This document shows, piece by piece, positions 151-26,515 of a stretch of DNA of 64,000 bases (its first letter is position 1; each line of letters begins with the position of its first letter). The notes under the pieces were generated by a model, which saw nothing but the letters and a program-made list of their open reading frames with translations, had not been told where the DNA came from and did no database searches. Origin of the DNA: an uncultured Clostridium sp. (GTDB lineage Bacteria; Bacillota; Clostridia; Clostridiales; Clostridiaceae); assembly GCA_903789665.1 (NCBI GenBank), contig CAIFEX010000014.1, positions 1 through 64,000 of the forward strand. Direction: 5' to 3'. The position numbers and the translations under genes were made by a program.

Positions 151-321
151 ATGGAAAAAATAAATCAGCAAAGTAGTTTGTATAAGCAGTTTCTGGGGTA
201 TTCATATGAGGATTTAAAAGAATTGTTTAAAAAATCAAAGACAAAAGAAGAACAAGATTTTTATGCTGCTTTATCGGATTTAGTGCTTCAAAGAGAGCAA
301 AAAAAAGTGATAGGTAAATAG
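151..321 (+). CDS. small putative antitoxin upstream of zeta toxin
   Basis: This 56-residue, lysine- and glutamate-rich protein begins MEKINQQSSLYKQ and has no recognisable enzymatic motif. It starts at an ATG 6-7 bp after GGAGGGG and ends 2 bp before the ATG of the zeta-like kinase, so the two are almost certainly co-translated. Its position and size fit the antitoxin of a zeta/PezT-type pair, whose antitoxins are small and sequence-variable. Paralogues occur at 6545 (truncated by deletion) and 26366 (intact but without a toxin). The antitoxin role is inferred from context only. Confidence 0.7.
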   Translation: MEKINQQSSLYKQFLGYSYEDLKELFKKSKTKEEQDFYAALSDLVLQREQKKVIGK

Positions 322-5761: not shown

Positions 5762-6435
5762 AATACCATCTCCTTAGTATGATACAAAATATATTATTTA
5801 TATTATATCACGTACCTGTTAGGAAATTGTTTTGAAGTATTAAGAAACAAAATATATTAATTGATGTGTCAAGCTGTGACGCGTGAACTGCCTGGTATAA
5901 TTTCCATGGTAAAAGTTGCCACTAATCAGGTAAAATGGCCATTTTGTCAGGATAATGCATTCATGCTAACGGATATTCAATACTCCGGAACAGTTATAGA
6001 TGATAACAAAGTCTGCCTAAGGGATTCTTTTCTGCAGGAGAGTTATTTATTTACGGTGCAAATAGTTTTCCATGATTAAAGCATTAAAAGAGAAAATTAA
6101 ATAAAATTGGATTTAACAAAAAATTGAATAGAGAATATGATTAAATCATTAGAGGTATGTAAATTGTGATTTGCTCAAAATAGTGAATTTTATGATCTTG
6201 AGTTATATAACTTAAAGGATATAGATAAATATCTGTGACAACCTGAAAAAGAAAAATTCCCGAAGAAGTATGAATAGTTATAGGAGAGGTGTCCTGATTG
6301 CAGATACAAAAGATAAGAATTTTGTCCACTTTATTGACTTATTAATTTGTGCCTTTTCCTTTATTTTATATTAGCATCAATAGAAAGATTGAGCATGTAT
6401 CAAAATGGTTGAAAAAGTTATTGCTCTCCAATAAA
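5762..6435. other. long non-coding stretch with unassigned protein-like scraps
   Basis: A plus-strand frame at 5861-6079 contains GTVIDDNKVCLRDSF and looks protein-like, but has no ribosome binding site and no family I can name. Scraps at 6170-6330 on the plus strand are broken by several stops. I see no intact gene, promoter or RNA in this stretch and read it as decayed sequence. Confidence 0.3.
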
Positions 6436-6544
6436 GAAAAGTGAGATTTCTGGAAATTTAAATTCAATTAAGTACAGCTATTTATGGGAATACTATATTA
6501 GGATACAATATAGTAAAACATATATTTATCGGAGGGGAATCGTT
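6436..6544 (+). repeat. copy B of the zeta antitoxin promoter/leader module
   Basis: The stretch runs from GAAAAGTGAGATTTCTGG through TTTATGGGAA, TACAATATAGTAAAA and TTTATCGGAGGGGAATCGTT. It matches 61-150 and, over a longer span, 19616-19726. The promoter and ribosome binding site are preserved although the genes behind them are wrecked. Confidence 0.7.
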
Positions 6545-6828
6545 ATGGAGAAAATAAATCAGCAAAATAACTTATATGAACAATTTTTAAAATATTCGTA
6601 TTGGGATTTAAAAGAACTATTTAAAAGGGCAAAAACAAAAGAAGAATAAATACAGATGAAATGGTAGCAAGAATAGGTTCATGGAAAGATAATAATCTTC
6701 AAATTAGATGTGCAAGAGAGGCTGTAAGGCTTATAAATTATTATATTGAAAATCATATATATGCAATGGAACAGTTAAATGGAAAAGAAATATAATTCCC
6801 AATTGGAGTAGAAAGATTCTGCAATAAG
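6545..6828 (+). pseudogene. doubly deleted copy of the antitoxin-zeta toxin locus
   Basis: The antitoxin frame begins MEKINQQNNLYEQFLKYSYW and runs to KAKTKEE-like residues. It then jumps to the middle of the zeta gene (TDEMVARIGSWKDNNLQIR) and again to its last codons and 3' flank (YNSQLE-type end, GAAAGATTCTGCAATAAGGGG). Compared with 151-900, two internal segments are missing. Each breakpoint falls in a short repeat (AAAGAA, then ATATAT). Neither protein can be complete, although a 34-residue N-terminal antitoxin fragment could still be made. Confidence 0.75.
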
Positions 6829-6916
6829 GGGTATATTTTTACGTAAAAATATGCTTTGTTGAAAAACTATAAGGGCGTTTTTGCAAGATTGTATAGAGTA
6901 TTTGACATGTTCTAAT

Positions 6917-10700: not shown

Positions 10701-10944
10701 AGTGAAGTGGGGAATTACAGATATTATCACAAGTGCCCAGATGCGTGAATTATTTAGTTATCATCGTTATGGCATGCAGGATTTAGATGATACTGGCCAA
10801 ATCCGGGATATAATTGCCAAAGCAAGCGTTGACTATAAGATGTTGGCACATGACGAAAAGATACAATCTTTGTCTAAAATCAAGTATCGTAATGGTTTGC
10901 GTAAAGCCATTTATGAATTGGCTGATGAGCGTGCTAAAAGCTAA
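7735..10944 (+). CDS. hsdR: type I restriction endonuclease subunit R
   Basis: The 1069-residue protein is the motor and nuclease subunit of a type I restriction complex. The N-terminal nuclease domain carries an IEEKR (ExK) motif near residue 174. The helicase part has a Walker A (TTGSGKT) ending near residue 322, VDEAHRS near 421 and GYTGTPMF near 448, with RecA-2 signatures DQLLTGFDAPELN and QAYSRTNR further on. The C-terminal helical domain contacts HsdM. Length and motif order match complete HsdR, with no frameshift. It is followed after about 74 bp by hsdS and then hsdM, an S-before-M order that is less common. Confidence 0.97.
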   Translation: MNEEQFETELIQYITSGTITKPEHLEGISNFMVSEKSADYCVKTKLWKYEPKIKTTDQLWDNFKEILERHNQSTLDHPLSTVEFNQVKKIISDIQTPYEAGQFLYGLNGVSQIEIDLDDGRHVFLTVFDQKQIGAGDTVYQVVNQIERPAVIAGKQNRRFDTTLLINGLPIIQIEEKRDTHDVNEALNQMHQYSEENQYRDIFSTLQILVAITPNNVKYMANTTPDKFNKDFAFNWQRKSDNTIVRNWKEFADSMLSIPMAHQMATNYMILDGTKNKQMLKVMRPYQVYATQNVIEKLKKVDFELGTNKVGYVWHTTGSGKTITSFKTAWLASRMPKVDKVVFVVDRIALTKQTSENYRAYDPDAGEDMIGSVEDTDNTNDLRRKLRSKDNNIVVTSVQKLDTLVKRKSFKAPDKNIVFIVDEAHRSTGGESFAKIQKAFKKSAWVGYTGTPMFDETTSGLRTEDIFGPLLHAYTIREAIADGNVLGFKVDFETTIDEKQMKLKYLPNFYRERYPKWTEEKIKDKINNLSQEDMDDAVEPSFYDENPDHIKLVVEDIFKNWRNRSNEGKYNALFTTHVGGGKASTPMAMMYFNEFQRVNNENKKNGGQTLKVAVTFSQNSSNNDSMFATNQGLHDAMKVYNKEFGTSFGMDDAAGYTQDVTERLKKTAADKNFLDIVIVVDQLLTGFDAPELNTLYVDRTLKGAGLIQAYSRTNRIADMQEKPWGRIVNYRWPAQNEKLMNEALAIYANKNSAILSEDEQRKSNQKDGIIAKPFEDVFNEVKEAVQKLDGLTDEFQQLPPSEKQKEDMFDLLRDYNAGVAKLKQYTPEEVDGNTVGFNYDNPDELVEKLGMTSAQETMLTTVLTNELKQYMSKKKRIPFYQIELKMTHVKDVKIDYDYLTELVEQLLNQVHEGKSQEAQATKEKIDQFATGLEDRNYAVKVMNAAIAIIKGHFPPEGYNLKYPVKLRDSEQIIQAANNVSLDRMFLDFRVKWGITDIITSAQMRELFSYHRYGMQDLDDTGQIRDIIAKASVDYKMLAHDEKIQSLSKIKYRNGLRKAIYELADERAKS

Positions 10945-11018
10945 TTCATATCTAATAAAACTTTAAAATTAATTATTGAACTGCTAATTATCAATTGACA
11001 GTTAAGATAGGAGATAAA

Positions 11019-12251
11019 ATGGATAAAAATAAAGCTAATGTACCTAAAATAAGATTTCCAGGATTTACCGACCCTTGGGAACAGCGTAAGTATAGTGATA
11101 CCTTTACAAATATACCCAATAATACTCTTGCTAGAGCTGAATTGAATTATAATTCTGGTCTAGCTAAAAACGTACATTACGGAGATGTTCTAATCAAATT
11201 TGGAGAATTACTAGACGTCGAAAAAGATGAAGTCCCATATATTACAGATGACACTTTGTCGAACAAATTCAAGTCATCAAAGCTGCAAAATGGGGATGTA
11301 ATTATTGCTGATGCAGCGGAAGATGAAACAGTTGGAAAGTGCACAGAATTGGTAAATGTAGGCGAAGAGATAGTCATTTCTGGACTACATACAATTCCAT
11401 GTAGACCAACATTATCTTTTGCATCGGGATACCTTGGATATTTTATGAATTCTCCTGCATATCATAATCAGCTTTTACGATTGATGCAAGGAACCAAGGT
11501 GTCATCTATCTCTAAATCAGCACTGCAAAATACGGTTATCTTTTACCCATTTGATATTTTAGAACAAAAGAAAATTAGTGAGCTTTTCCAACAGCTAAAT
11601 AGCCTTATTACCCTTCATCAGCGTAAGTTAAATCACCTGAAGTATGAAAAGAAAGGTTTGTTACAAAAAATGTTCCCGAAAAATGGCGAAAATTTTCCAG
11701 AACTTCGTTTCCCGGGATTCACTGACCCTTGGAAACAGCGTAAGGTTAAAGATATATTCAAAGTAACCCGTGGATATGTCCTTGCAGCTACTGAAACGAC
11801 GGATAAGAAAACTGATGAAACACCTTATCCAGTTTACTCATCTCAAACAAAAGATAATGGTTTACTGGGGTATTACAAAAACTTTCTTTATGAAAATGCT
11901 ATCACTTGGACAACTGATGGAGCTAATGCTGGAACGGTTAACTATCGTGCCGGAAAGTTCTATTGTACCAATGTTTGCGGGGTTTTGTTGTCTGATGATG
12001 GATATGCAAATAAGATGGTTTCAGAAGTGCTAAATAATATTTCATGGAAGTATGTTTCAAAAGTTGGAAATCCAAAGTTAATGAATAATGTAATGAGTGA
12101 AATTGTTATTTTACTTCCTAAAACTATAGAAGAACAAAACACAATTTCTGATTTCTTAGATAGACTTGACGATCTTATCACCCTTCATCAACGTAAGTTA
12201 AATCATTTGCAGGAACAAAAGAAAGCATTACTACAACAGATGTTTATATAA
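11019..12251 (+). CDS. hsdS: type I restriction specificity subunit S, two recognition domains
   Basis: The 410-residue protein has two target recognition domains (about residues 15-190 and 225-400). Each opens with RFPGFTDPW[EK]QRK and closes with ITLHQRKLNHL, so the gene is an internal direct duplication at its conserved borders. It sets DNA sequence specificity for both methylation and cleavage. The ATG at 11019 follows AGGAG at 11008-11012; an upstream in-frame TTG at 10995 lacks a proper ribosome binding site. The same border sequences flank a start-less third domain at 14646-15212, next to a recombinase. Confidence 0.95.
   Translation: MDKNKANVPKIRFPGFTDPWEQRKYSDTFTNIPNNTLARAELNYNSGLAKNVHYGDVLIKFGELLDVEKDEVPYITDDTLSNKFKSSKLQNGDVIIADAAEDETVGKCTELVNVGEEIVISGLHTIPCRPTLSFASGYLGYFMNSPAYHNQLLRLMQGTKVSSISKSALQNTVIFYPFDILEQKKISELFQQLNSLITLHQRKLNHLKYEKKGLLQKMFPKNGENFPELRFPGFTDPWKQRKVKDIFKVTRGYVLAATETTDKKTDETPYPVYSSQTKDNGLLGYYKNFLYENAITWTTDGANAGTVNYRAGKFYCTNVCGVLLSDDGYANKMVSEVLNNISWKYVSKVGNPKLMNNVMSEIVILLPKTIEEQNTISDFLDRLDDLITLHQRKLNHLQEQKKALLQQMFI
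11074..11090 (+). repeat. 5' border repeat of recognition domain 1 (also at 11728-11744 and 14668-14684)
   Basis: CTTGGGAACAGCGTAAG occurs identically at 11074-11090 and 14668-14684, with one mismatch at 11728-11744. Each copy marks the start of a recognition domain, so these are likely crossover sites for domain exchange. Confidence 0.75.
11610..11635 (+). repeat. 3' border repeat of recognition domain 1 (also at 12180-12205 and 15168-15185)
   Basis: ACCCTTCATCAGCGTAAG and its extension end the first domain. The second domain carries the same segment with one change (CAACG) at 12180-12205. The silent cassette ends in ACCCTTCATCAGCGTGAG at 15168-15185, after which homology stops. Confidence 0.75.
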
Positions 12252-12325
12252 ACAGAGTGTGATGGAGGTATTACAGTTGACAGCCATCGGATAAAATAAT
12301 TTGAAAAGAGAAAGGAATTAAAACA

Positions 12326-13915
12326 ATGAGCAATAATATGCAAACAATTACTAGTAAACTTTGGGCTATGGCAAATGAACTGCGCGGCACAATGGATGCG
12401 TCGGAGTACAAAAACTATATCCTGTCATTTATGTTTTACAGATATCTTTCGGAACATCAAGAACAGTATTTGGTAAAAAATAATGTTATTGACGCTGCAG
12501 AGGGAGAATCTATCAATGATGCTTATCTAAAACAAGCGGCAGGTGTAGATTTGGCTGACTATTTACAAGATATTTCATCAAGTTTGGGATATGCAATTGC
12601 GCCGAATGATACATGGAAGTCTTTGATTAATAAAATTAATGATTCACAGGTTATTCCCAGCGACTATCAAACTATTTTTGATAACTTTAATAAGAATGCG
12701 GAATTAAATAAAGAAGCGGTGAAAGATTTCCGCGGTATATTCAACGATATTAACCTGGGAGATACACGTCTTGGAAGTTCTACAAATGAACGTGCAAAAT
12801 CACTTAACAATGTAGTTAAGTTAGTGGATGAAATTGAATACAAGGGAGATGATGGGAAAGACATTCTAGGTGAAATCTATGAATACTTAATCGGTAAATT
12901 TGCTGCAAGTGCTGGTAAAAAGGGTGGGGAATTTTATACACCTCATCAAGTAAGTAAGATTTTGGCTAAAATAGTCACCAGCGGTGTAGAAAAATCGAAT
13001 GAATTTTTCAATGTATATGACCCGACAATGGGCTCAGGTTCCCTGCTGCTTACTGTTGGACAAGAATTGCCTGATGGTACTCCTATAAAGTATTTTGGTC
13101 AAGAGTTGAATACAACAACATATAATTTGGCCCGTATGAACTTAATGATGCATAATGTGTCTTATAACAATATGACATTAAATAATGCTGATACTCTGGA
13201 AAACGATTGGCCGGATGGACCAGATGGAAAAGGGATTGACCACCCGCGCAATTTTGATGCAGTGGTTGCAAATCCACCGTATTCTGCGAAATGGGATAAT
13301 GATAAAACTAAATTAAAAGATCCGCGTTTTAGCGATTATGGGAAATTGGCACCAGCCTCAAAAGCAGATTATGCTTTTGTATTACACGGTATATATCATT
13401 TAAACAACACTGGCACAATGGCTATTGTTCTGCCTCACGGTGTGCTGTTTCGCGGTGCAGCAGAAGGCAAAATCCGTCAAACTCTGATTGAAAAAAATTA
13501 TCTCGATGCGGTTATTGGTCTGCCGGCTAACTTATTTTATGGGACAAGTATACCTACAATCATTTTGGTATTTAAGAAGAATCGTAAAACTAAAGACATA
13601 TTATTTATTGATGCAAGCAGTGATTTTGAAAAGGGAAAGAATCAAAATAACTTGAATGATGAAAATATAGATAAAATCATCAATACATTTAAGGAACGCA
13701 AAGATGTTGATAAATATGCTCACTTGGCATCAATTGATGAAATCAGGGAAAATGAGTTTAACTTGAATATTCCACGTTATGTTGATACTTTTGAAGAAGA
13801 AGCTCCAATTGATTTGGAAGAGGTAAATAAGCAATTAAAGCAAGACAATAAGGAAATCGCAGAACTCGAAGCAAAGATTAATGAACAATTGAAGATTTTA
13901 GGTGTAAAAATTTAG
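12326..13915 (+). CDS. hsdM: type I restriction N6-adenine methyltransferase subunit M
   Basis: The 529-residue protein has an N-terminal HsdM helical domain (residues 8-150) and an N6-adenine methylase domain. SAM-binding motif I is DPTMGSGSLL near residue 232 and the catalytic NPPYSAKW is near residue 316. The C-terminal tail (KQLKQDNKEIAELEAKINEQ) is a coiled coil that pairs with HsdS helices. With HsdS it forms the modification enzyme protecting the host genome. The ribosome binding site GAGAAAGGAA supports the start. The gene is complete, and its codon use looks like that of hsdR and hsdS. Confidence 0.97.
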   Translation: MSNNMQTITSKLWAMANELRGTMDASEYKNYILSFMFYRYLSEHQEQYLVKNNVIDAAEGESINDAYLKQAAGVDLADYLQDISSSLGYAIAPNDTWKSLINKINDSQVIPSDYQTIFDNFNKNAELNKEAVKDFRGIFNDINLGDTRLGSSTNERAKSLNNVVKLVDEIEYKGDDGKDILGEIYEYLIGKFAASAGKKGGEFYTPHQVSKILAKIVTSGVEKSNEFFNVYDPTMGSGSLLLTVGQELPDGTPIKYFGQELNTTTYNLARMNLMMHNVSYNNMTLNNADTLENDWPDGPDGKGIDHPRNFDAVVANPPYSAKWDNDKTKLKDPRFSDYGKLAPASKADYAFVLHGIYHLNNTGTMAIVLPHGVLFRGAAEGKIRQTLIEKNYLDAVIGLPANLFYGTSIPTIILVFKKNRKTKDILFIDASSDFEKGKNQNNLNDENIDKIINTFKERKDVDKYAHLASIDEIRENEFNLNIPRYVDTFEEEAPIDLEEVNKQLKQDNKEIAELEAKINEQLKILGVKI

Positions 13916-14033
13916 ATTTGCTGGTGGTGGGAACAGTGTGAGTTAGATGTGATTTTAAATTTTATATAAGTAGGATATTTTTATCCTACTTATGGTATAA
14001 TATAAACATATTATAGTATTAGGAGGAGTTTCA

Positions 14034-14279
14034 ATGCTGATAAATACTAAAAAGATAGTTTCAATGTCAGAGGCTAACCAGAATTTTTCTAAAGTAGCCA
14101 AGATGGTTGATGAGGACAAATCGGTAGTTATTATGAAAAATAACAAGCCCAAATATGTAGTTTTGGACTTTGAAGAATTCACTAAAGAAGCTGTATCTGA
14201 AGAACAGACCCTTGATAGGACTGCAGATAAAATTCTTGAAGAAAATATAGAAGCTTTTAAGGAACTGGCTGATAGATGA
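14034..14279 (+). CDS. Phd/YefM family antitoxin
   Basis: The 81-residue protein begins MLINTKKIVSMSEANQNFSK and contains KSVVIMKNNKPKYVVLDFEE, the Phd/YefM DNA-binding and dimerisation domain. A charged C-terminal tail normally wraps the toxin. The ribosome binding site AGGAGGAG is strong. The stop overlaps the start of a doc-like frame (ATGA), the normal arrangement of phd-doc, but Doc is gutted. The antitoxin is therefore probably orphaned and may still repress its promoter (TATAAT-like element at about 13997). Confidence 0.85.
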   Translation: MLINTKKIVSMSEANQNFSKVAKMVDEDKSVVIMKNNKPKYVVLDFEEFTKEAVSEEQTLDRTADKILEENIEAFKELADR

Positions 14280-14432
14280 AATATATATCTTTGGAATATA
14301 TAATAAAATTGCATGATAAGATGATAGATATTACAGGTGGATCAAAAGGAATTAGTCGATTTAGGTGTGGATATAGCATCCGGAAAGTTAAATCAGAAAG
14401 ATATAATATCCTGGATAGAAAATCATAAATAA
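14276..14432 (+). pseudogene. Doc (Fic-fold) toxin with its catalytic core deleted
   Basis: The first codons read MKYISLEYIIKLHDKMIDIT and GGSKGI, the exact beginning of Doc proteins. A shifted frame then reads ELVDLGVDIASGKLNQKD and IISWIENHK, the usual last helix of Doc, ending at 14430-14432. The central part, including the HxFxDGNKR active site, is absent and the two ends are out of frame. Toxicity should be abolished. Confidence 0.75.
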
Positions 14433-14489
14433 GTATTTACTTTTTTATGGTAGGTGCTTATTATTTATGCCTGAGAAAATGATGATACC

Positions 14490-14645
14490 ATGAATTCCAC
14501 AATGCTTATGGAGACAGTTAAACGGCTAAACGAATTTACAAGTATGATTATACCCAATTATGATATCTGTCTTTTAATTGATATTGCAAAATATAAGAAA
14601 CCAGAAGCTCCTGCTGATATAATTAAAAATTGGATCTGGAGCTAA
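14490..14645 (+). other. short unassigned reading frame (51 codons)
   Basis: The frame reads MNSTMLMETVKRLNEFTSMI and then CLLIDIAKYKKPEAPADI. It lies between the broken doc and the silent hsdS cassette. It has no good ribosome binding site and no family I recognise, so it may be a fragment at a recombination junction. Confidence 0.2.
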
Positions 14646-15212
14646 TGCGTTTACTTTCTCACACTTGCTTGGGAACAGCGTAAGCTGGGTGAAGTTGCTG
14701 AACGTGTTACTCGAAAGAACAAAGATTTAGAGTCAACATTACCACTAACAATTTCTGCACAAGATGGATTAGTAGACCAAAACATGTTCTTTAATAAGAC
14801 TGTTGCGAGTCGTGATGTAAGTGGATATTATCTAGTGAAAAATGGTGAATTTGCTTATAACAAATCATATTCAAATGGTTATCCTTGGGGTGCAGTTAAA
14901 CGTCTTGATCGTTATGATATGGGCGTATTATCAACGCTTTACATCGTTTTCAAGCTAACTGATGTGAATAGTGATTTCTTGACAAAATACTATGATACGA
15001 CATACTGGTATCATGAGGTTTCAAAACACGCAGCTGAGGGAGCAAGAAATCATGGCCTATTAAATATTGCCGCTTCAGATTTCTTTGAAACAGAATTAAC
15101 AATACCAAAAGATAAGGCTGAACAAGAGAAAATCGGACGATTTTTCAATAATATTGACCACCTCATCACCCTTCATCAGCGTGAGTCATTTTTGATAATG
15201 ATTCCTTGTTAA
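14646..15212 (+). pseudogene. silent hsdS cassette: one recognition domain without a start codon
   Basis: The open frame begins right after a stop at 14643-14645 and has no start codon before AWEQRKLGEVAERVTRKNKD. It encodes one complete recognition domain and ends DHLITLHQRES, then a short unrelated tail. Borders match those of the active hsdS: a 17-bp identical 5' repeat, and a 3' repeat that stops at 15185. It is in the same orientation as hsdS. Its stop overlaps the stop of the convergent recombinase gene. An ATG at 14784 would give a truncated domain and is probably not used. It is best read as a donor cassette, not a dead gene. Confidence 0.8.
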
Positions 15213-16135
15213 CTTAGCCCTGACAATGAACGCATAATTAAATCTACGTCCTTATTTTGAAGTTCCTGAATAATATGTAAATAGGTTTTTTGGCTTGTTG
15301 TCATACTAGCATGCCCCAACCTTCTTGCGACACTCGCAATTGATACACCAGCAAATAACAAAAGGGAGGCATGGGTGTGGCGTAATCCGTGAATTGAAAT
15401 TACTGGAACCTTTGCATTTTTACAGTGTCTTGTTAATATATTATTAACAGTTGAATTATATACTTTGTTTTTTGTAAATATAGGTTTATCTTCCGGCAAT
15501 CCCTTTAGTAATTCAGAAAACTGAATTACTGTTTGCCAGTCTATTTCTACTTTGCGTACAGAGGATTGATTTTTTGTCGGAAGAAAGCCGCCGCTTCCTT
15601 TATAATTCCATGTTTTACTGATTGAAAGAATCTGATGTGAAAAATCAAAATCTTTAGGTGTAAGTGCTAATGCTTCTGAAAAGCGCATCCCGTTTTTTGC
15701 AACTAATAGTATGAACCAATCCCAGCTTACTTCAGACTTTAAATCAAGATTGCTTAATAGAGTATGCAGCTCAAACTGATTCAGGTACTTTGTTTTTTTA
15801 TACCTTGGAGTTTTTCCCTTAATTATTGCTTTTCGCGTAGGATCCCTATCAATTAGACCTTCATCCACTGCATCCAAAATCGCAGCTTTTAATTGATGAT
15901 GAAAATCCATCGTTGTTTGACGCTCATGCCATGCAGCATAGTCATTAAGTAATTGTTGGTAGGTTATACGATTCAAATCGCAAATTATAAGGTCTGGAAT
16001 AAGTTTTTCAAGCCACTTTTTCGTCATAAGATATTTATCCATAGTCACTTTTCTTACAGCACCATCTTTGTAGACTGTAATCCATTGCCCATAATATTGG
16101 TAAAATAGATCAGTTTCTTTTACTTTTTCTAACAT
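15209..16135 (-). CDS. tyrosine recombinase/integrase
   Basis: The 308-residue protein has an N-terminal SAM-like core-binding domain (about residues 10-95) and a catalytic domain. The recombinase residues are R151 (NGMRFSEA), H249-x-x-R252 (IHGLRH), H275 (RLGHASM) and nucleophile Y285 (KTYLH). The ATG at 16135 follows GGGAGG at a good distance, and an upstream in-frame ATG at 16183 lacks one. It is convergent with, and overlaps the stop of, the silent hsdS cassette. In other Firmicutes such recombinases beside type I loci shuffle hsdS domains, and I infer the same here. A prophage origin is possible, but no phage genes or att repeats are visible. Confidence 0.9.
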   Translation of the reverse strand: MLEKVKETDLFYQYYGQWITVYKDGAVRKVTMDKYLMTKKWLEKLIPDLIICDLNRITYQQLLNDYAAWHERQTTMDFHHQLKAAILDAVDEGLIDRDPTRKAIIKGKTPRYKKTKYLNQFELHTLLSNLDLKSEVSWDWFILLVAKNGMRFSEALALTPKDFDFSHQILSISKTWNYKGSGGFLPTKNQSSVRKVEIDWQTVIQFSELLKGLPEDKPIFTKNKVYNSTVNNILTRHCKNAKVPVISIHGLRHTHASLLLFAGVSIASVARRLGHASMTTSQKTYLHIIQELQNKDVDLIMRSLSGLS

Positions 16136-16183
16136 TATTAATTCCTCCCTTTGATTTATCGAAAATTGCCTCACGCTGATCAT

Positions 16184-16651: not shown

Positions 16652-17218
16652 TTAGGTAATTTTAATACCATTGATGAAATATTTAAGGAGTTTTGTAGTT
16701 GCATCATCAATATGTTCAATTGATTCATCCTTTAAAAGGCCCAATATAATGTAATTTAATGATTTGGACATTAAAAGTGTATCTGTGTCCGGGCGAATTA
16801 AGCCCAGAGTTTTTCCTCGATTTAAATAGTCAGCTATATTTTGGGTCAATTTATTCATGCAGCTGCTAACCAATTCCTTGATTTTGGGGTATTCTTTGAA
16901 AAGGCTTCTTAACTGCGGTGTACCAAATTCATTGAGAAGGTCACAAAAGGCTTCACAAAGTGAGTTAATAGCCGAGAAAAAATCTGCATCAGAACATATA
17001 ATCCCTTCTATTTTCTTTTCATGACCTTCTAGAATCTCTTCAATTACTTCTGAAATTAAAATTTCTTTGTTTACTATAATTCTATATAATGTATCTTTTG
17101 CAATGTTTGCTTCTTCACATATCATGTCCATTGTCCAGCCTTTGGCACCATAAGTCTTAATCAATTTACAGGTTGCCAGGCGGATCCTGTGTCTAAATTC
17201 TTCATTGTTTTTTTTCAC
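16652..17218 (-). CDS. TetR/AcrR family regulator
   Basis: The protein has an N-terminal helix-turn-helix (ATCKLIKTYGAKGWTMDMIC, then EEANIAKDTLYRI) and an all-helical ligand domain, about 188 residues in all. The GTG at 17218 is chosen because AAAGGAG lies 9 bp upstream; an in-frame ATG at 17236 has no such site. The start overlaps the end of the amidohydrolase gene, so the two form one transcript from the promoter near 18560. It probably represses that promoter through the inverted repeat at 18537-18576. The ligand is unknown. Confidence 0.85.
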   Translation of the reverse strand: MKKNNEEFRHRIRLATCKLIKTYGAKGWTMDMICEEANIAKDTLYRIIVNKEILISEVIEEILEGHEKKIEGIICSDADFFSAINSLCEAFCDLLNEFGTPQLRSLFKEYPKIKELVSSCMNKLTQNIADYLNRGKTLGLIRPDTDTLLMSKSLNYIILGLLKDESIEHIDDATTKLLKYFINGIKIT

Positions 17219-18521
17219 TATTTTTACTCCTTTCATAGACGATATTACCATTTATTATAACAGATTTGATCTTGTCAATAGATGCAATATTATTTTCCAG
17301 ATTGGAGTCGATAATTAGCATATCAGCTCGCTTCATCGGTTCTATAGAACCAATCTCCTTTTGCATTCCAAATACTTTTGAAGAGTTTAAAGTAGAAGCT
17401 TTAATTGTCTCAGTCAAAGATAATCCAGCTTTCATGAGCAATTCTATCTCACGGGTCGGTGTATTATGGAGAGAAAAGCCCAGCGCGGAGTCCGTTCCCA
17501 TTGCTACAATTCCTCCCAATGCAATATATCTTCTGACATTTTCAAGTTGAATTGCAGAAACTTCTTCAAGTTGGGATTTAGGAAGTTTTACAAAGAAATC
17601 TCCAATAGGTTTGTTCGGATTACCATGGGTATATGCTTCCGTAAAATTACGCATATTTACTTTAATTTTTTCGTTAACAGCCGGATCATAGTCAGGCCTG
17701 AAAATCCATCTTTCTTTCAAACCTGTTACAATCAAGTCTACAAGGCTTAATGTAGGAACAAATATTATTCCTTTTTCTATCATTATTTCCAGTACATTAT
17801 TATCGGCAATTCCGTCAAATGCAGCGTGATGTATACTGTCTACTCCACATTTTGCAGCCTGCTCATAATCTTTAATGTATGTGATATGTGCGCATACATT
17901 AAGACCATAGCTGTGGGCCTCATCTGTAAGACATCTTAGCTCTCTATCTGTCCAGTTTACCTGCGGTCTATTATCAAAAGTTCTGCTGACCACAGCTGTT
18001 TTGATTACAGACACTCCTTTTTTATAGAGTTTCCGCACATTCCGTTTAATTTCATCTAATCCGTCACATTCAATCACCGATCCCATCTTATAAAACTTTT
18101 GCGGCATATATTCCTGTGGGTAACCTCCTTTACAGGTTAAAATAGAAATTGCATTATAAATTCGCGTTTTAGATCCAATTAATCTTTCTAAATAGGGAGC
18201 TATATTGGCAGAACCCAAATCAAGGACAGAGGTTACTCCTCCTTTTGATATTTCAGATAAATTTCTTTTTAGCTGGTGCAAATTGAATCCTACTTCGATT
18301 CCAAAGCCTCCGCAGTTCATAACGTGCTTGTGTGAGTCAATTAAACCCGGTATAATTGTACAATTTCTTGCATCAATTATGGGGATGTTCGGGTCAATCA
18401 GTGAAGAGTTTCTTTCAATTCTGGCAATATGATGATTCTTAACGATAACTATAACATCTTTCAATGGTGGTTTACCGGTACCGTCAATTAGTACTCCGCA
18501 TCTAATTCCATAAAAATTCAT
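17202..18521 (-). CDS. amidohydrolase family protein (imidazolonepropionase/prolidase-like)
   Basis: The 439-residue protein has the amidohydrolase metal sites. PGLIDSHKHV gives the HxH pair (here HKH). A central lysine stands in KTAVVSR, histidines in CAHITY and HHAAFDG, and the catalytic aspartate is in MGTDSALG. A small composite beta-sandwich is built from both ends (GVLIDGTG...ADMLIIDSNL). Such enzymes hydrolyse cyclic amides, dipeptides or related C-N bonds in the cytoplasm. The ATG at 18521 follows AGGAGG. A co-transcribed TetR regulator suggests induction by a small molecule, possibly the substrate. The substrate cannot be deduced. Confidence 0.85.
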   Translation of the reverse strand: MNFYGIRCGVLIDGTGKPPLKDVIVIVKNHHIARIERNSSLIDPNIPIIDARNCTIIPGLIDSHKHVMNCGGFGIEVGFNLHQLKRNLSEISKGGVTSVLDLGSANIAPYLERLIGSKTRIYNAISILTCKGGYPQEYMPQKFYKMGSVIECDGLDEIKRNVRKLYKKGVSVIKTAVVSRTFDNRPQVNWTDRELRCLTDEAHSYGLNVCAHITYIKDYEQAAKCGVDSIHHAAFDGIADNNVLEIMIEKGIIFVPTLSLVDLIVTGLKERWIFRPDYDPAVNEKIKVNMRNFTEAYTHGNPNKPIGDFFVKLPKSQLEEVSAIQLENVRRYIALGGIVAMGTDSALGFSLHNTPTREIELLMKAGLSLTETIKASTLNSSKVFGMQKEIGSIEPMKRADMLIIDSNLENNIASIDKIKSVIINGNIVYERSKNSEKKQ

Positions 18522-18838: not shown

Positions 18839-19534
18839 TTACTTTAATATGATTTGGATTTTGGCTAGAAGTTGTTCTTGATTCATGAATTTGTAAAAAA
18901 CTTTATGAGCCGCTGATTCACGTGCAATGTCTAGTACCATTCCTTCTTTGACTGGTTTAATATAATTAACGGTAATTTGTTCAATTTGACTAACCTGTTC
19001 TGAGATTAAATCCAGATAGCGGGCATTATTCATATGCCCATAGTTATCAATATCCCGTCCTAAAACAGTGTATTGATGGATTTCTTCCTTTGCAGCCAAT
19101 GGCAACTGGATTTTTTCCCGCAAAACATGGCATTTCATATTTGGATCGATAATTTTGGATACTGGAAAATCCCTTGACAAACTGACTAAATTGTTATTTG
19201 AACGATCAACGACAAAAGCATCTTCTGTTTGTGTGGCTAACAATTCGTTCACATCATTTAAAATCTTAACTAACCGCGTAAATTTTCTTCTATTGGCATC
19301 GATAATGAAAGACTGAATAATTAGTTTATCAGATAAAAATGGCGGCTTCAAAATTTTAACTTTTTGATCGGATACAAAAAAACCGATGTTGGCATTTAAT
19401 TTAGGCAGTTTCTGCAGAATTGATTGCATATGCACCCATCCGACATCTTGAAATTTATCAATCAAGGATCCTGGCTTTATTTCAGAATTATAACCGACCT
19501 CTGACAAAAAAACTTCACTTTGACATTCTAACAT
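18839..19534 (-). CDS. acyl-ACP thioesterase (FatA/FatB-type double hotdog)
   Basis: The 231-residue cytoplasmic enzyme has two hotdog domains. The second carries DIDNYGHMNNARYLDL (residues 161-176), the Asn/His signature of bacterial and plant acyl-ACP thioesterases. It hydrolyses acyl-ACP to free fatty acids and so ends or diverts fatty acid synthesis. The length is typical of bacterial members. A perfect 23-bp palindrome lies just upstream of the ribosome binding site, so transcription is probably controlled by a lipid- or biotin-type regulator encoded elsewhere. It is a single-gene unit. Confidence 0.85.
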   Translation of the reverse strand: MLECQSEVFLSEVGYNSEIKPGSLIDKFQDVGWVHMQSILQKLPKLNANIGFFVSDQKVKILKPPFLSDKLIIQSFIIDANRRKFTRLVKILNDVNELLATQTEDAFVVDRSNNNLVSLSRDFPVSKIIDPNMKCHVLREKIQLPLAAKEEIHQYTVLGRDIDNYGHMNNARYLDLISEQVSQIEQITVNYIKPVKEGMVLDIARESAAHKVFYKFMNQEQLLAKIQIILK

Positions 19535-19551
19535 TATAAAATATCCTCCTA

Positions 19552-19574
19552 AGATATTGCAAATTGCAATATCT
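19552..19574. promoter_or_regulatory. 23-bp perfect palindromic operator before the thioesterase gene
   Basis: AGATATTGCAA and TTGCAATATCT are exact complements around a single central A. The palindrome begins about 4 bp from the CCTCCT (minus-strand AGGAGG) ribosome binding site, so a bound protein would block initiation or early elongation. Confidence 0.65.
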
Positions 19575-19615
19575 ATAAATTATAAATTTATTATAGATCT
19601 AAAATGTCTGTATGA

Positions 19616-19726
19616 AGAAAAGTGAAATTCTTGGAAATTTAAGTTCAGTTAAGTATAACTATTTATGGGAGTAATATATTAGGGTACAATATAGTAAAAG
19701 ATATATTTATCGGAGGGGAAAGCGTT
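19616..19726 (+). repeat. copy C of the zeta antitoxin promoter/leader, now upstream of a response regulator
   Basis: The stretch from AAAAGTGAAATTCTTGG to TTTATCGGAGGGGAAAGCGTT matches copy B (6436-6544) along its whole length, including the TACAATATAGTAAAAG -10 region and the GGAGGGG ribosome binding site. Instead of an antitoxin gene it leads into a two-component/ABC cassette. Confidence 0.75.
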
Positions 19727-19783
19727 ATGGAAAAAGTAAAACAAAGGATGGTGAAAATAAATGAAACGGATATTTTTGGTTGA
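19727..19783 (+). CDS. 18-residue leader frame: hijacked antitoxin start overlapping the response regulator
   Basis: The frame starts MEKVKQRMVKINETDIFG. Its first codons match the antitoxin (MEKINQQ...) and sit behind the antitoxin ribosome binding site, while its end overlaps the response regulator start by 23 bp in another frame. Reading through to the TGA at 19781 would bring ribosomes to the ATG at 19761, allowing translational coupling. It probably has no function as a peptide. Confidence 0.4.
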   Translation: MEKVKQRMVKINETDIFG

Positions 19784-20447
19784 AGATGATAAGGAAATCG
19801 CCAGAAACCTTGTCCTTTTGCTCCATTCAGAGGGATTTACAGTAACTCACGCTGCTACGCGGGATGACGCCCTTGCCGCACTTGCAGCAAATAAATTTGA
19901 CTTGGCGTTGATTGATATTTCTTTGCCTGATGGAAATGGATTTACAGTTTGCACGGAAATCAAAGAAACACAAGATTTTCCCGTTATCTTTCTGACGGCC
20001 TCCGGCGATGAAGCAAGTGTTGTTACCGGGCTGAACATAGGTGCGGACGACTATATTACCAAGCCCTTTCGTCCGCGTGAACTGATCGCACGAATTAGGA
20101 CAGCTCTGCGAAAAAGTGGACGTCCTCCATCGGCTTTTGAAATCTGTGGGCTTTATGTCGATATGGCAAGTGGTGTTGTGAAAAAGAACGGCAGTGAGAT
20201 TTTTCTTTCAGCCTTAGAATATCGCTTGCTGCTGGTATTTATTAGCAACCCCGAAAGTATTATCACGAGGAGCAGGCTGCTTGATGAATTGTGGGATGCT
20301 GCAGGCGAGTTTGTCAATGACAATACATTGACTGTGTACATTAAACGCTTGAGGGAGAAGATAGAGAACGATCCGGCAAACCCGCAAATAATTCTGACCG
20401 TTCGCGGGATGGGATATAGATTGGGTGACATGTATGCTTCAAAATAG
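19761..20447 (+). CDS. OmpR/PhoB-family response regulator (Bce/Van-like)
   Basis: The 228-residue protein has a receiver domain with acidic pocket EDD (residues 8-10), phosphoacceptor D in LALIDISLPDG (about residue 52), T in FLTASG and K in ITKPF. A winged-helix DNA-binding domain (ALEYRLLLVF...VYIKRLREKI) follows. It probably activates the adjacent ABC transporter. The stop overlaps the histidine kinase start. Base composition is clearly richer in GC than neighbouring genes, which with the captured promoter suggests horizontal arrival of the 19.7-24.8 kb cassette. Confidence 0.92.
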   Translation: MKRIFLVEDDKEIARNLVLLLHSEGFTVTHAATRDDALAALAANKFDLALIDISLPDGNGFTVCTEIKETQDFPVIFLTASGDEASVVTGLNIGADDYITKPFRPRELIARIRTALRKSGRPPSAFEICGLYVDMASGVVKKNGSEIFLSALEYRLLLVFISNPESIITRSRLLDELWDAAGEFVNDNTLTVYIKRLREKIENDPANPQIILTVRGMGYRLGDMYASK

Positions 20448-21423
20448 AGAGTTTCGGCAGCTTGCCATTTTGTTCTCCTTAATAACTGCCTCCGCTGTGA
20501 CGCTGGGATTTGCAATCAACAGATTGGCTGGAATTCTTGCTATTGCTTCCGCTGCCGCCTTTGGAGCAGCGTTTTTTGCGTTTACCAAAGCCCAATATGA
20601 AAGTATTGCGCGGATTTCAGATCAGATCGATATTGTGCTTCATAATGCCGACCGTCTGTATATTGGCGAATCGGAAGAGGGCGAACTTTCCATTCTGCAA
20701 AGCGAGATAACAAAAATGACGCTGCGTATCCGGGAGCAAAACGACGCACTAAAAAAAGAAAAAGAACGTCTTGCCGATTCGCTGGCCGACATAGCTCACC
20801 AGCTCCGCACCCCTCTCACATCGGTAAATCTCATTCTATCACTGTTGGAGAATAATCCTGACGAAAATAAACGGAAAGCATTGATACGGGAGATGAAGGA
20901 GTTGTTTTTACAAATGGATTGGCTGCTTACTTCCCTGTTGAAATTATCCCGCCTGGATGCAGGCATTGTTGTTTTCCAAAGCGAGCAGGTAGATGTGAAC
21001 ACTTTAATAAACGCCGCGCTTCACCCGTTCTTGATCCCAATGGAGCTGCACGATATTGCTCTGCAGATAGACGTGCCGAAAGGGATAATTATTCAGGGCG
21101 ATTCTGCTTGGTTTTCGGAAGCAATTCAAAACATCATCAAAAATTGCGTGGAAAGTGCAGGCGATAACGGGAAGATTGAGATTGTCTGCAGATCCAACCC
21201 GCTGTTTACCAAGATTGTCGTACACGACAGCGGCGCGGGCTTTGAAAAAGAAGATTTACCCTTCCTGTTTGACAGGTTCTATTGTGGAAAAAATACAGCT
21301 GCCACAGGATATGGTATTGGATTGGCTCTTTGCAAGATGATTATAACACGGCAGGGAGGTACGATTACTGCCCAAAATCATCCGCAGGGCGGTGCGATAT
21401 TTTCCATTCGTTTCCCAAAGTGA
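20434..21423 (+). CDS. intramembrane-sensing histidine kinase (BceS-like)
   Basis: The 330-residue kinase has two closely spaced N-terminal membrane segments (about residues 8-48) with almost no external loop. A HAMP-like linker and the H-box DIAHQLRTPLTSVN follow, then N (IIKNCVES), G1 (HDSGAGF) and G2 (GYGIGLALCK) boxes. Kinases of this architecture do not sense ligands themselves but read the state of a Bce-type ABC transporter. The ATG at 20434 overlaps the response regulator by 14 bp; an upstream GTG at 20425 is less likely. Confidence 0.9.
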   Translation: MLQNREFRQLAILFSLITASAVTLGFAINRLAGILAIASAAAFGAAFFAFTKAQYESIARISDQIDIVLHNADRLYIGESEEGELSILQSEITKMTLRIREQNDALKKEKERLADSLADIAHQLRTPLTSVNLILSLLENNPDENKRKALIREMKELFLQMDWLLTSLLKLSRLDAGIVVFQSEQVDVNTLINAALHPFLIPMELHDIALQIDVPKGIIIQGDSAWFSEAIQNIIKNCVESAGDNGKIEIVCRSNPLFTKIVVHDSGAGFEKEDLPFLFDRFYCGKNTAATGYGIGLALCKMIITRQGGTITAQNHPQGGAIFSIRFPK

Positions 21424-21505
21424 CGAATCTCTCACCTGAAAGTCACAGAGATGTAAGTTGAAAGTTCTATTATATGGGTAGACTGTGAAAAAGGAGGATC
21501 ACATA

Positions 21506-22189
21506 ATGGAGTTTTTAAAAACAGAAGATTTATGCAAGATCTACGGTAAGGGCGAGAACCAGGTTACCGCACTTGACCATGTTTCGCTTACAATTGAAAA
21601 AGGAGGATTTACTGCAATCATAGGCTCCTCCGGTTCCGGTAAATCCACATTGCTTCACATTATCAGCGGCGTGGATGTGCCGACAAGTGGAAAGGTGTAT
21701 TTGGACGGGCAGGATGTATATGCTCAAAGCAATGAAAAACTTGCCATATTCCGCAGGAGGCAGGTTGGACTGATTTACCAGTTTCACAACCTTATTCCAA
21801 CTCTGAATGTGGTGGAAAATATCACTTTGCCTATTCTGATGGACAAACGAAAAGTCAATGAGGAACGGTTGAATGAATTGTTGGATTTGCTTGGGCTAAA
21901 AGACCGTAAAATGCATTTGCCCAATCAGCTTTCGGGCGGACAGCAGCAGCGTGTTGCTATAGGACGCGCTTTGATGAACGCCCCGGCGGTCATGCTTGCC
22001 GACGAACCGACCGGCAGTTTGGACAGCAAAAATGGACATGAAATCATCAAACTGCTGAAAGAAAGCAATAAAAAATACAATCAGACTCTTATCGTCGTCA
22101 CACATGATGAAAACATTGCTTTACAAGCGGACCGCATTATCGGCATATCGGACGGCAAGGTAGTGCGGGATGAGAAGGTGAGATCATGA
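21506..22189 (+). CDS. ABC transporter ATP-binding protein (BceA/LolD/MacB-type)
   Basis: The 227-residue ATPase has Walker [10 protein letters not shown], the Q-loop in YQFHN, signature [15 protein letters not shown], Walker [14 protein letters not shown] and the switch histidine in VTHDENI. The ATG at 21506 follows AAGGAGG; an in-frame GTG at 21485 lies ahead of that site and is not used. Its stop overlaps the permease start (ATGA). It powers the FtsX-type permease in probable export or removal of antimicrobial peptides. A separate promoter may lie in 21424-21484. Confidence 0.95.
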
Positions 22190-24771
22190 ATATTTTTAAC
22201 AAGGTCACCCTGCAAAGTATGAAAAAGAGCCGCACACGAACGATTGTAACAGTGATCGGAGTTGCCTTGTCCACTGCGATGATTACGGCAGTTGCCACCT
22301 TTGGCGTTTCCCTGCTGAACTATATGGCAAACGGTGCGGCCCAGAAATACGGCGGCTGGCATGTGGAGTTTCCGAATGTTGATTCTTCTTTTGCAGCGAA
22401 ACAGGTAAGTAACGACAAAGTTGCAAGCACCGCAACATTTGAAAATATCGGTTATGCAAAACTTGATGGCGTGAAAACCCCCAACAAACCGTATCTTTTT
22501 ATAGCCGGATACGGAAAGAAAACTTTTGATACCTTGCCCATAACCCTGGTTTCCGGCAGGCTGCCGAAAACCAGTGGGGAGGTTCTTGCTTCGGGGAGCA
22601 TTGCGACAAGGGGCGGCGTTAAATTTGCGGTGGGCGATACGATTTCCCTGTCTGTAGGAAACCGCATGGATGGAAACAAGAAATTGGGTCAGAATAATCC
22701 GTACACATCGGGAGATGAAACTTTTGTTCCGCAGGACAAGAAAACCTATACGGTTGTAGGTATCTGCCAAACACCCGCTTTTGAGGAATCTTCCGCGCCG
22801 GGATATACCTTGATAACGAAAGCTGGTACACAAGATAAAGTGGATAGCTTCAGCCTGTTTGTCACGCTGAAAAATCCGCGGGAGGTTCATTCTTATGCAA
22901 GCAGTGTAGCTGGAAGCCGTGCTTATGTCTTGAATAATGATGTGCTGCGCTTCATGGGTCTTTCTGACGATAACGTATTCAACGTGCTTCTGTACTCCAT
23001 CGGGAGCATTGTGGTTGCCATCATCATGCTTGGCTCGATTTTTCTGATTTATAATTCGTTCAGCATATCAATGAACGAACGCACACATCAGTTTGGGATT
23101 CTCTCGTCGGTAGGGGCCACCGAAAAGCAACTGCGAAATTCGGTGCTGTTTGAGGGGCTTTGCATTGGTGCGGTTGGCATACCGATCGGTGTGATTGTCG
23201 GCATCGGCAGCATGGGGCTTGTACTTTCCGTTGTTGCCAAAAGTTTTGCAAACATTCTTTACAGCAATGTCCATTTAACTTTGACGGTGTCTACCCCTGC
23301 GATCGTTACCGCGGCGGCAGTCAGCATGGTCACTGTTTTGATCTCGGCCTATATCCCGGCCCGCAAGGCCGCCAGAACTCCGGTGATGGAGTGTATTCGC
23401 CAGACGAACGAGATCAAAATCGAATCCAAAGCCGTGAAAACTTCAAAGCTCGCGGAGCATATTTACGGCCTGGAAGGTACTCTTGCGTTAAAGAATTTTA
23501 AAAGAAACAAGAGATCCTATCGCAGCATTGTGCTGTCACTTGTTTTAAGTGTAGTGCTGTTTATATCGACCAGTGCTTTTGTAACAGATTTGAAACAGGC
23601 GTCGGAGAGGGCAGAAGTGTTCACTACCTATGACATCGGTTTTGGCACACAGGATATGGACGATAGTAAAATGCTGCAGCTTTATGACAAATTAAAAACT
23701 GCTGATGGTGTTACCAAAAGCTCATATCAAATTGTTATGAAATATTTATGCACTGTCAAAGCAAGCAATCTTTCAGATGATTACTGGAAATCTGCAGGGG
23801 CACATTCGCCGGACGAAACAGTGAGTCTGCCAATGACAATCCAGTTTTTAGATGATAACACCTATCTGAATATTATCAAAGGCTTGGGATTGCCCGCAGA
23901 GAAATATACCGGGCAAAATGCAAAAGTGATCGCCGTTGCCAAAATGCAGGGCCGCAGCAATCGGATGGAGGAGCTTGATCAGTTTAGTGATATGTTCACG
24001 AGTCCTTCCATGAGGTTTACCATCACTCCAGAAATAAACGGCGAGCCGAAAAAGGAACAAGGGCAAAATGTAAGCATTACGTTTGTCGCGACCGTTCCGC
24101 CTGATACACCGCCAATGGCAGGAACCTCCGGGCAGCGGCCATATACTTTTATGGTGATGGCTCCATATTCGCTCAAGGAGAAACTTGCGCCCTTCGATAC
24201 CTCGCCGGATATCATTGTGAAGGGAATGACCTTTCAGTCGAAGAATCCTTCACAGTCGACGGCTGAAATGGAAACTATGATTCAGGGTGCGGGAATTACG
24301 GACGAATACAACCTGTACAATATGGATAAAATACTTGATCAGAACCGCAATATGATATTTATTGCCAACGTATTTGCTTATACTTTTATCATTATGATTT
24401 CGCTGATTGCGGTTGCCAATGTGTTCAACACGGTTTCCACGAATATCAAGCTGCGCCGGCGGGAGCTTGCCATGCTGCGCTCTGTGGGGATGTCCGACCG
24501 CGATTTCAATAAAATGATGCGTTTTGAATGCGCCTTGTATGGTATGAGGGCACTGCTTGTCGGGCTTCCTCTGGCAATCATCTTTTCCTGGCTGATCTAC
24601 AAAGGGATGGTCATCGGCGGGGCGGAAAATATCGATTTTGTATTTCCGTGGTTCAGTATGGGAATCAGCGTGTTCAGTGTGCTTCTTGTCATCTTTATCA
24701 CTATGATATATGCCGTCAGCAAGATCAAAAAAGAAAATATAATTGACGCACTTCGGGATGACATGGATTGA
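22186..24771 (+). CDS. FtsX-family ABC permease, two FtsX domains
   Basis: The 861-residue integral membrane protein has a first membrane segment near residues 18-40 and a large external domain. A first FtsX unit lies around residues 265-400 (with the VGATEKQLR coupling motif). A second membrane anchor and external domain follow (about 435-710), then a second FtsX unit to the C-terminus (LRSVGMSDRDF). It is longer than BceB (about 650 residues) and closer to other peptide-resistance or lipoprotein-type permeases. With the upstream ATPase and intramembrane kinase it forms a sensing-detoxification module. The substrate is inferred. Confidence 0.9.
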   Translation: MNIFNKVTLQSMKKSRTRTIVTVIGVALSTAMITAVATFGVSLLNYMANGAAQKYGGWHVEFPNVDSSFAAKQVSNDKVASTATFENIGYAKLDGVKTPNKPYLFIAGYGKKTFDTLPITLVSGRLPKTSGEVLASGSIATRGGVKFAVGDTISLSVGNRMDGNKKLGQNNPYTSGDETFVPQDKKTYTVVGICQTPAFEESSAPGYTLITKAGTQDKVDSFSLFVTLKNPREVHSYASSVAGSRAYVLNNDVLRFMGLSDDNVFNVLLYSIGSIVVAIIMLGSIFLIYNSFSISMNERTHQFGILSSVGATEKQLRNSVLFEGLCIGAVGIPIGVIVGIGSMGLVLSVVAKSFANILYSNVHLTLTVSTPAIVTAAAVSMVTVLISAYIPARKAARTPVMECIRQTNEIKIESKAVKTSKLAEHIYGLEGTLALKNFKRNKRSYRSIVLSLVLSVVLFISTSAFVTDLKQASERAEVFTTYDIGFGTQDMDDSKMLQLYDKLKTADGVTKSSYQIVMKYLCTVKASNLSDDYWKSAGAHSPDETVSLPMTIQFLDDNTYLNIIKGLGLPAEKYTGQNAKVIAVAKMQGRSNRMEELDQFSDMFTSPSMRFTITPEINGEPKKEQGQNVSITFVATVPPDTPPMAGTSGQRPYTFMVMAPYSLKEKLAPFDTSPDIIVKGMTFQSKNPSQSTAEMETMIQGAGITDEYNLYNMDKILDQNRNMIFIANVFAYTFIIMISLIAVANVFNTVSTNIKLRRRELAMLRSVGMSDRDFNKMMRFECALYGMRALLVGLPLAIIFSWLIYKGMVIGGAENIDFVFPWFSMGISVFSVLLVIFITMIYAVSKIKKENIIDALRDDMD

Positions 24772-25168
24772 TTCAAAATTCTCTTCTTGGGCTGTGTCAC
24801 GAGCAATCATGTTTGCACCTTATTCAGCAAAACGCAGCGCAGTCCCGGTTCAATTTATTTAGTTACCTTTGCCCGTAAATAACTATTATACAGAAGGCAG
24901 TACGGCAGTATATTGACAAATTCTTGTATTTGATGCGGTGTTAGTGCTAATGGATAAATATATTTTATTGAATGAACACCAGTTAAGTGTATAATAAAAG
25001 AGCAGGTGAAGCATACACAATAATATCCAGTCTTGAATATAAAAAATAGAGGGGAATGAGTATGAATTTGTGTAAAATCAAATTTATATTTATTCCCAGT
25101 ATTTATTCAGGATTTAATTTGTGTGAGCATATCATAAAAATTTTAAAATACAATGGGGGGATACAACA
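24772..25168 (+). promoter_or_regulatory. intergenic region with promoter for the AEC permease
   Basis: TTGAAT at 24968-24973 and TATAAT at 24990-24995 are 16 bp apart and form a convincing promoter for the downstream permease. A short frame from 25062 behind GAGGGG (52 codons, overlapping the permease start) could be a leader, but its composition is not protein-like. The first 150 bp show nothing. Confidence 0.5.
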
Positions 25169-26131: not shown

Positions 26132-26365
26132 AAGATATACTTTAATAACACTATCATTGTCTGATAATCGGCTTTTGTGGTAGTTTTGTCCTTTTCCTTC
26201 TGCAGATCTTAGTATACTAGATAGAGAAGCATGTCTTTGAAGTGGGGAAAACTAATTTTGAGGTGACATTATCACAAGTTAACAACATGGTAGATAAAAA
26301 TTGTTTATATAAGTGATTTATTAGGCTATGATATAATAAAGATATTATTTGTTGGAGGGATTATT

Positions 26366-26515
26366 ATGGGGAAAATAAATCAACAAAATAGCTTATATGA
26401 GCAATTTCTGAAATATTCATATTGGGATTTAAAAGAATTATTTAAAAAGGCAAAAACGAAAGAAGAACAGGATTTTTATATGGATCTATCAAATAGGATA
26501 TTACAAAAAGAATGA
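26366..26515 (+). CDS. orphan copy of the zeta-associated antitoxin
   Basis: This 49-residue protein (MGKINQQNSLYEQFLKYSYW, then DLKELFKKAKTKEEQDFYMD) is a close paralogue of the protein at 151-321 and ends slightly earlier. GGAGGG precedes it and a TATAAT-like element lies at about 26330. The spacer GATAGGTAAATAG after the stop resembles the antitoxin-toxin junction of copy A, but no toxin follows. It could still neutralise the toxin encoded at 324-887. Confidence 0.65.
   Translation: MGKINQQNSLYEQFLKYSYWDLKELFKKAKTKEEQDFYMDLSNRILQKE

Follow-up and report, generated by a model that had tools for sequence, protein, structure and literature searches.

In the window (the whole 64,000-nt stretch of DNA that was analyzed), a mobile, Bce-like sensing and transport operon appears to have been joined to the start of a zeta-type toxin-antitoxin (TA) copy, amounting to a basal promoter swap that would require no control by the TA system. 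We assign this reading a probability of about 72%. The sequence at this locus is chimeric, with parts missing, followed by four open genes and a conserved box region (Table 1), and the junction is known from one assembly (3.03 Mb, 63 contigs).

Table 1. Features of the fused operon and of the TA copies, in window coordinates.
Feature	Position	Strand	Basis and remarks
Antitoxin of copy A (56 aa; leader-donating family)	151..321	+	Homologues adjoin zeta genes in the family
Copy A zeta-type toxin gene, 187 aa	324..887	+	Pfam Zeta_toxin, 30.5 bits (cutoff 22.3)
Copy B: TA leader, truncated antitoxin, toxin fragments	6431..6848	+	Self-blastn, tblastn
Leader C: TA-derived upstream region, promoter, ribosome site, first three antitoxin codons	19612..19735	+	blastn, alignment, shuffles, per-position parent match
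Predicted TA promoter	19662..19690	+	-35 TTTATG (19662-19667), 17-bp spacer, -10 TACAAT (19685-19690)
Shine-Dalgarno GGAGGGG of antitoxin start	19712..19718	+	Same in A and B
18-codon chimeric upstream ORF	19727..19783	+	Sequence, per-position parent match; 23-nt overlap with regulator start
Tail of native small HTH gene, with ATGA overlap and regulator ribosome site	19736..19764	+	
OmpR-type response regulator, 228 aa	19761..20447	+	Pfam Response_reg, Trans_reg_C; dN/dS 0.10-0.13 against 4 relatives
Sensor histidine kinase, two membrane segments, no extracellular domain	20425..21423	+	Pfam HisKA, HATPase_c; hydropathy
Bce-type regulator box TCACA-GAGA-TGTAA	21443..21456	+	Exact TNACA-N4-TGTAA
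Proposed -10 TATTAT of transporter promoter	21468..21473	+	By eye; -35 position lies within the box
ABC transporter ATPase, ATG start after AAAGGAGG	21506..22189	+	Pfam ABC_tran; start conserved in alignment
FtsX/MacB-type permease, 861 aa	22186..24771	+	Pfam FtsX, MacB_PCD; 8 predicted membrane segments (hydropathy)
Copy D: leader, 49-aa antitoxin, toxin absent	26304..26515	+	Self-blastn, translation

Alignment confirmed the region ahead of the regulator gene as a diverged copy of the window's zeta-type TA leader (87 to 92% identity). Positions 19637-19743 matched leader A (62-167) at 92% over 107 columns (blastn, E = 5e-36) and 19612-19743 matched leader B (6431-6561) at 87% over 132 columns (E = 1e-38), while the local alignment scores of 167 and 177, respectively, lay far above the maxima of 35 and 38 reached in 1000 dinucleotide shuffles per comparison. 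The original prediction, which had placed an antitoxin promoter, ribosome site, and start directly upstream of the response regulator and had named an alignment of the three leaders as a check, is thus borne out. The 18-codon remnant frame that it described as overlapping the regulator start is likewise present, running from an ATG at 19727 to a TGA at 19781-19783 across the regulator ATG at 19761. The "first codons" of the antitoxin come to about three (Met-Glu-Lys, to 19735), and the later codons of the frame are operon sequence read in a different frame. Leader C carries one base more before the ATG than leaders A and B. The window also holds a fourth leader-like copy that was absent from the earlier list, copy D, whose leader resembled leader C weakly (score 47 against a shuffled maximum of 41).

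Leader A has the same hexamers as the predicted TA promoter, with the same spacing. Inspecting the leaders by eye, we found TTTAT(A/G) 17 bp ahead of the -10 in six of the seven same-genus TA homologues with a readable leader (three further rows had none), and a -10 of TATAAT in five and TACAAT in two of these seven. The promoter assignment rests on this conservation because a consensus scan left 19662-19690 unflagged; the -35 is weak. The same scan listed + strand sites further upstream, at 19514-19542 and 19520-19547, inside or beside the divergent gene, and its three sites in all represent no excess over shuffles (mean 2.3). That gene (18839-19534) adjoins the operon on the opposite strand, which excludes read-through from it into the operon. 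RNA folding of the leader indicated no special structure (z = 0.79). The closest TA leaders were found in Clostridium luticellarii DSM 29923 (G001) and Clostridiaceae bacterium BL-3 (G091), names assigned partly from identical operon upstreams. To the left of leader C, likeness to a G091 locus extends to 19629, and a TA leader sought in that locus was not found.

The break between TA leader and operon, as read from a position-by-position comparison with both parents, sits at 19735-19744, at a shared TAAA. The window follows the three TA parents up to 19735 (one of them deviates at 19732), carries the operon base at 19736 (45 of 52 operon upstreams, 0 of 3 TA parents), and then runs through the TAAA at 19737-19740, which is common to both, and through a base at 19741 that is rare in both. 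From 19744 it tracks the operon (44 to 52 of 52), with TA parents agreeing only sporadically, and most positions from 19743 onward agree with 51 or 52 of the 52 upstreams. This comparison was aligned on the antitoxin ATG, and left of 19723 its register is shifted by the extra base of leader C. Operon alignments of the window with G091 and G136 started at 19735 and ended at 24779 and 24778. Among 146 family genomes (drawn evenly from a larger group, five candidates scored per genome), all matches at E < 1e-6 outside the window's own genome ended at query base 129-133 (19740-19744) or earlier. This point was crossed by eight weak matches of no more than 41 bp (E between 7e-5 and 9e-4), of which the one from G092 was examined and proved to be an operon upstream without a TA leader. 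The exact 24-nt junction pattern had no occurrence in viral contigs.

What lies to the left of the regulator in related operons defines what the window has lost. We collected 51 upstream sequences (43 distinct), 32 by a pattern that requires the tail of the preceding gene and covered one genome per species, and 19 by permease matches, leaving out G020 contig 47 and G120 (no regulator found) and a duplicate of the G136 sequence. In 27 of the 43 distinct upstreams, the regulator is preceded by an intact 64-aa HTH gene that ends in an ATGA on the regulator start, where intact denotes a frame of at least 62 codons from a (M/V)(D/N)Y motif. Its product is excisionase-like: one member scored 28.4 for HTH_59 and 28 for HTH_17, just over the cutoff of 27, and fell below the cutoff of the NCBIfam excisionase domain while matching a PHROG excisionase family at E = 3e-11. 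A promoter near -241 of the regulator was present in 19 of the 27 intact upstreams under a strict pattern (TTG-type -35, 17 bp, TATAAT or TACAAT; the -10 form is also given as TA(C/T/G)AAT), a pattern that also fits 8 of the 16 broken upstreams, at varied distances. Because pairwise matches among intact relatives mostly stop 240 to 265 nt upstream (some reach 300 to 350), we take the native unit to start about at its promoter. Sorting by eye the 16 upstreams with a broken HTH gene gave nine internal deletions with the native promoter kept, one marginal case, four upstreams affected by stops, frameshifts, or decay, and two in which other sequence had wholly replaced the upstream. The differing end points of these breaks, judged by eye, suggest repeated loss. 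By this comparison, the window is a further replaced-upstream case, one in which the donor is known.

In the window, ~25 nt of the small HTH gene's tail remain, and the native ATGA overlap with the regulator start has become a 23-nt overlap. The regulator ribosome site, GGATG(A/G)TGAAAATAA, was kept in 17 of 19 loci; this conservation was judged on the permease-found loci because the pattern set of 32 demands the tail sequence. A new promoter arising within 19727-19761 was considered and set aside as improbable, this 34-nt stretch being mostly conserved tail. The arrival of a complete unit was also rejected, since ~215 nt of the operon's own 5' end, comprising the promoter and most of the HTH gene, are absent. 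The proposal that an incoming cassette landed just after an antitoxin start accordingly holds in part: the unit is richer in GC (0.45 to 0.46 across the four genes, 19761-24771, against 0.34 to the left and 0.31 to 0.36 to the right, as had been predicted), has plasmid-borne relatives, and is fused at its 5' end to the TA start, but it is not whole when measured against intact relatives. Among ten plasmid records with an operon match, two begin at 19737 and eight inside the operon genes or at the edge; in a C. difficile plasmid copy, the position of the small HTH gene is occupied by an annotated ORF of 40 aa. Phage records gave two matches only, both inside the regulator. A search for an antitoxin or toxin remainder between the operon and copy D, and in the 3.6 kb to the left of leader C, yielded nothing above chance (one 16-aa toxin match had E = 0.79), and because of this, insertion and deletion cannot be distinguished.

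Each of the four operon genes has an uninterrupted, full-length frame, and their dN/dS values are 0.05 to 0.26 against 4 of 20 relatives; such values indicate that the operon has been kept, mostly reflecting its history before the fusion. Hydropathy peaks of the kinase are confined to residues 13-31 and 34-52. The permease found its best PDB sequence matches in YtrF, LolF, and MacB, with PsdB at E = 0.0019, and the next best permease match in the window's genome, among the matches listed, has 26% identity. A tail beyond the permease stop, present in some relatives, is missing in the window. At one related locus (G104:C2:2682981-2685558, L082), the permease appears as two separate matches, each containing a stop, and other sequence has replaced the upstream. 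We consider it probable that the operon senses and resists antimicrobial peptides.

A second control region lies between the kinase and ATPase genes. In this 82-bp gap (21424-21505), 51 of the 82 columns are invariant in 21 sequences, and its mean identity to 20 relatives is 0.88; the short coding stretches on either side reach 0.95 and 0.88. It contains an exact TNACA-N4-TGTAA, given as the consensus for regulators of bceAB-type genes in PMC9020739, which is exact in 16 of the 20 relatives and deviates in G092, G105, G074, and G122. Since the first 32 kb of the window contain two more occurrences of the pattern, it is conservation, rather than the pattern alone, that supports the box. When sought in forward orientation in 52 sequences from upstream of the regulator (43 distinct), it was not found. 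The consensus scan left the proposed -10 at 21468 unflagged and flagged a site at 21479-21507 instead. Most likely, judging from these conserved elements, the regulator switches the transporter on from the 21443-21473 region. Because the ABC genes keep this conserved region with its box, a direct dependence of transporter expression on the TA promoter is unlikely, and we rejected the idea that the TA promoter controls the whole operon.

These observations can be assembled into the following sequence of events. Recombination or deletion at the 4-nt microhomology TAAA, at the start of a zeta-type TA copy, would have joined the operon to the TA leader, to the exclusion of its native promoter and almost the whole 64-aa HTH gene. 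RNA polymerase would then start from the TA promoter, at ~19697, and ribosomes would bind at the TA ribosome site and translate the 18-codon frame, with the regulator presumably still served by its own ribosome site. Since the transporter genes keep their own box region, the TA promoter probably sets only the basal levels of regulator and kinase; the phosphorylated regulator would then activate the transporter genes from about 21443-21473. The net result would be one basal promoter traded for another, together with the loss of a small HTH gene. Most likely, the fusion leaves the path from regulator to transporter unchanged, with the TA promoter now supplying the basal input. Against this account, the 23-nt overlap of the 18-codon frame could lower translation of the regulator.

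A different outcome, in which antitoxin autoregulation governs the operon and the state of the TA system sets resistance expression, had been suggested in the original prediction, and we regard it as very unlikely. Leader C does keep what leaders A and B share upstream of the start, copy A is an intact TA pair on the same contig, 19 kb from the operon, and PezA of the related PezAT system is described as autoregulating its transcription (PMC4803016). The same source, however, assigns epsilon and zeta no role in transcriptional regulation (PMC4803016). Family profiles, Pfam included, gave no match above cutoff for the antitoxins of copies A and D, and thus no DNA-binding family for the 56-aa protein; the sub-threshold matches were to T4_Rnl1_C for A (E = 0.048) and to the HTH domain of TFIIF-beta for D (E = 0.026), the latter being a point in favor. 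An epsilon family match in Pfam was absent up to E = 10. The best PDB profile match had E = 0.36, and a three-helix model (mean pLDDT 86.7) retrieved nothing significant in a PDB fold search (best E = 2.3). Leader A contains no inverted repeat of at least 7 nt, and the ABC genes are preceded by a conserved region of their own. With no DNA-binding family above cutoff, no significant fold match, and no inverted repeat of this length in leader A, the suggested link between resistance and antitoxin autoregulation is not supported, and antitoxin control of the operon is unlikely.

That the fusion is instead a dead remnant, with the operon weakly expressed or silent and decay yet to come, we judge to be rather unlikely. 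Relative to fuller relatives, both the 5' end and the tail after the permease have been cut away, the -35 of the TA promoter is weak, an upstream frame overlaps the regulator, and other TA copies nearby are decaying: copy B is a decayed locus with internal deletions, and copy D lacks the toxin gene. Yet the four genes are intact under the dN/dS values given above, in contrast to the G104 relative with its split permease, and neither the regulator ribosome site nor the stretch ahead of the ABC genes departs from what relatives have. A misjoin during assembly at a repeated leader is extremely improbable. The window does hold four leader-like copies, and the leader A match lies 61 bases from the start of the contig, but leader C differs from A and B at 8 to 13% of positions and is therefore no exact repeat, and a junction-spanning query matched only three leader places in this genome. 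The reading that we prefer remains that of a joined operon with an exchanged basal promoter.

Relatives of the zeta toxin occur in 56 of the 146 family genomes, many of the listed matches being fragments. In BL-3 (L083:10294-13566), a TA leader and an antitoxin cut after nine codons are followed by an ABC-F gene over the Lsa-family NCBIfam cutoff (762.8 against 750 bits) and then by a methyltransferase gene over the Cfr-family cutoff. C. luticellarii (L084:14430-15693) has the same leader, again with the antitoxin cut at nine codons, and then an ABC-F gene (start read), and the two leaders stand in corresponding places. The BL-3 resistance block is not a promoter capture because a TTGACA-like promoter of its own is present (by eye). 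Two cases in one genus are no rule, and a leader-based search favors finding such remnants; it is quite improbable that resistance-type blocks repeatedly become joined at zeta-type antitoxin starts in this genus. If this were true, TA debris would provide incoming genes with a stock of ready-made promoters and starts.

Several other features of the window were noted in passing. The 49-aa antitoxin ORF of copy D is complete (26366-26512, stop at 26513-26515) and is possibly free-standing. A palindrome, GATATTGCAA-A-TTGCAATATC, lies at 19553-19573 ahead of the divergent gene 18839-19534, which looks thioesterase-like by eye and could be regulated by the product of a TetR-like gene (by eye) at 16652-17251. 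A type I restriction-modification locus, named by eye, spans 7163-16183; in it, a partial second specificity-type gene (14784-15212) adjoins a tyrosine-recombinase-like gene (15209-16183), and parts of the locus are rearranged in relatives; it is perhaps a switching specificity system.

As a natural promoter swap, the locus presents an acquired regulatory operon standing behind the promoter of TA debris, with the join and the losses resolved to near base level. Two traits of a widespread Clostridial operon also come to light, namely an often-broken small HTH first gene and a Bce-type box ahead of a non-BceB transporter. With Bce modules, the operon shares the row of regulator, two-TM kinase without extracellular sensor (a layout described as Bce-type in PMC7864038), ABC ATPase, and permease, as well as the box ahead of the transporter genes. 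It differs from them in the small HTH gene before the regulator in 27 of the 43 related upstreams and in the permease, which is MacB/YtrF-like, whereas BceB is a 10-TM protein (PMC10314905). By kinase layout and box, the operon would work like a Bce module, but we do not class it as one because its permease has 8 predicted segments against the 10 of BceB. Compared to epsilon/zeta and PezAT systems, the TA family of the window shares the Zeta_toxin match and the small antitoxin gene directly upstream of the toxin gene, and differs in the sizes of its proteins (187 aa for the toxin, 56 aa for the antitoxin) and in an antitoxin that matches neither epsilon nor PezA in Pfam, PDB sequences, or PDB folds. 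Deletion or recombination can join the promoter and start of one gene to another unit (PMC12803068). Searches of the open-access literature on promoter capture, TA promoters, zeta systems, and Bce modules turned up no paper on the present arrangement. A further paper on deletion-born fusions and promoter capture (PMC11111574) is reportedly similar in kind. What sets the fusion in the window apart from such cases is the nature of its two partners: a TA locus as donor and, as recipient, a mobile two-component/ABC operon minus its first gene.
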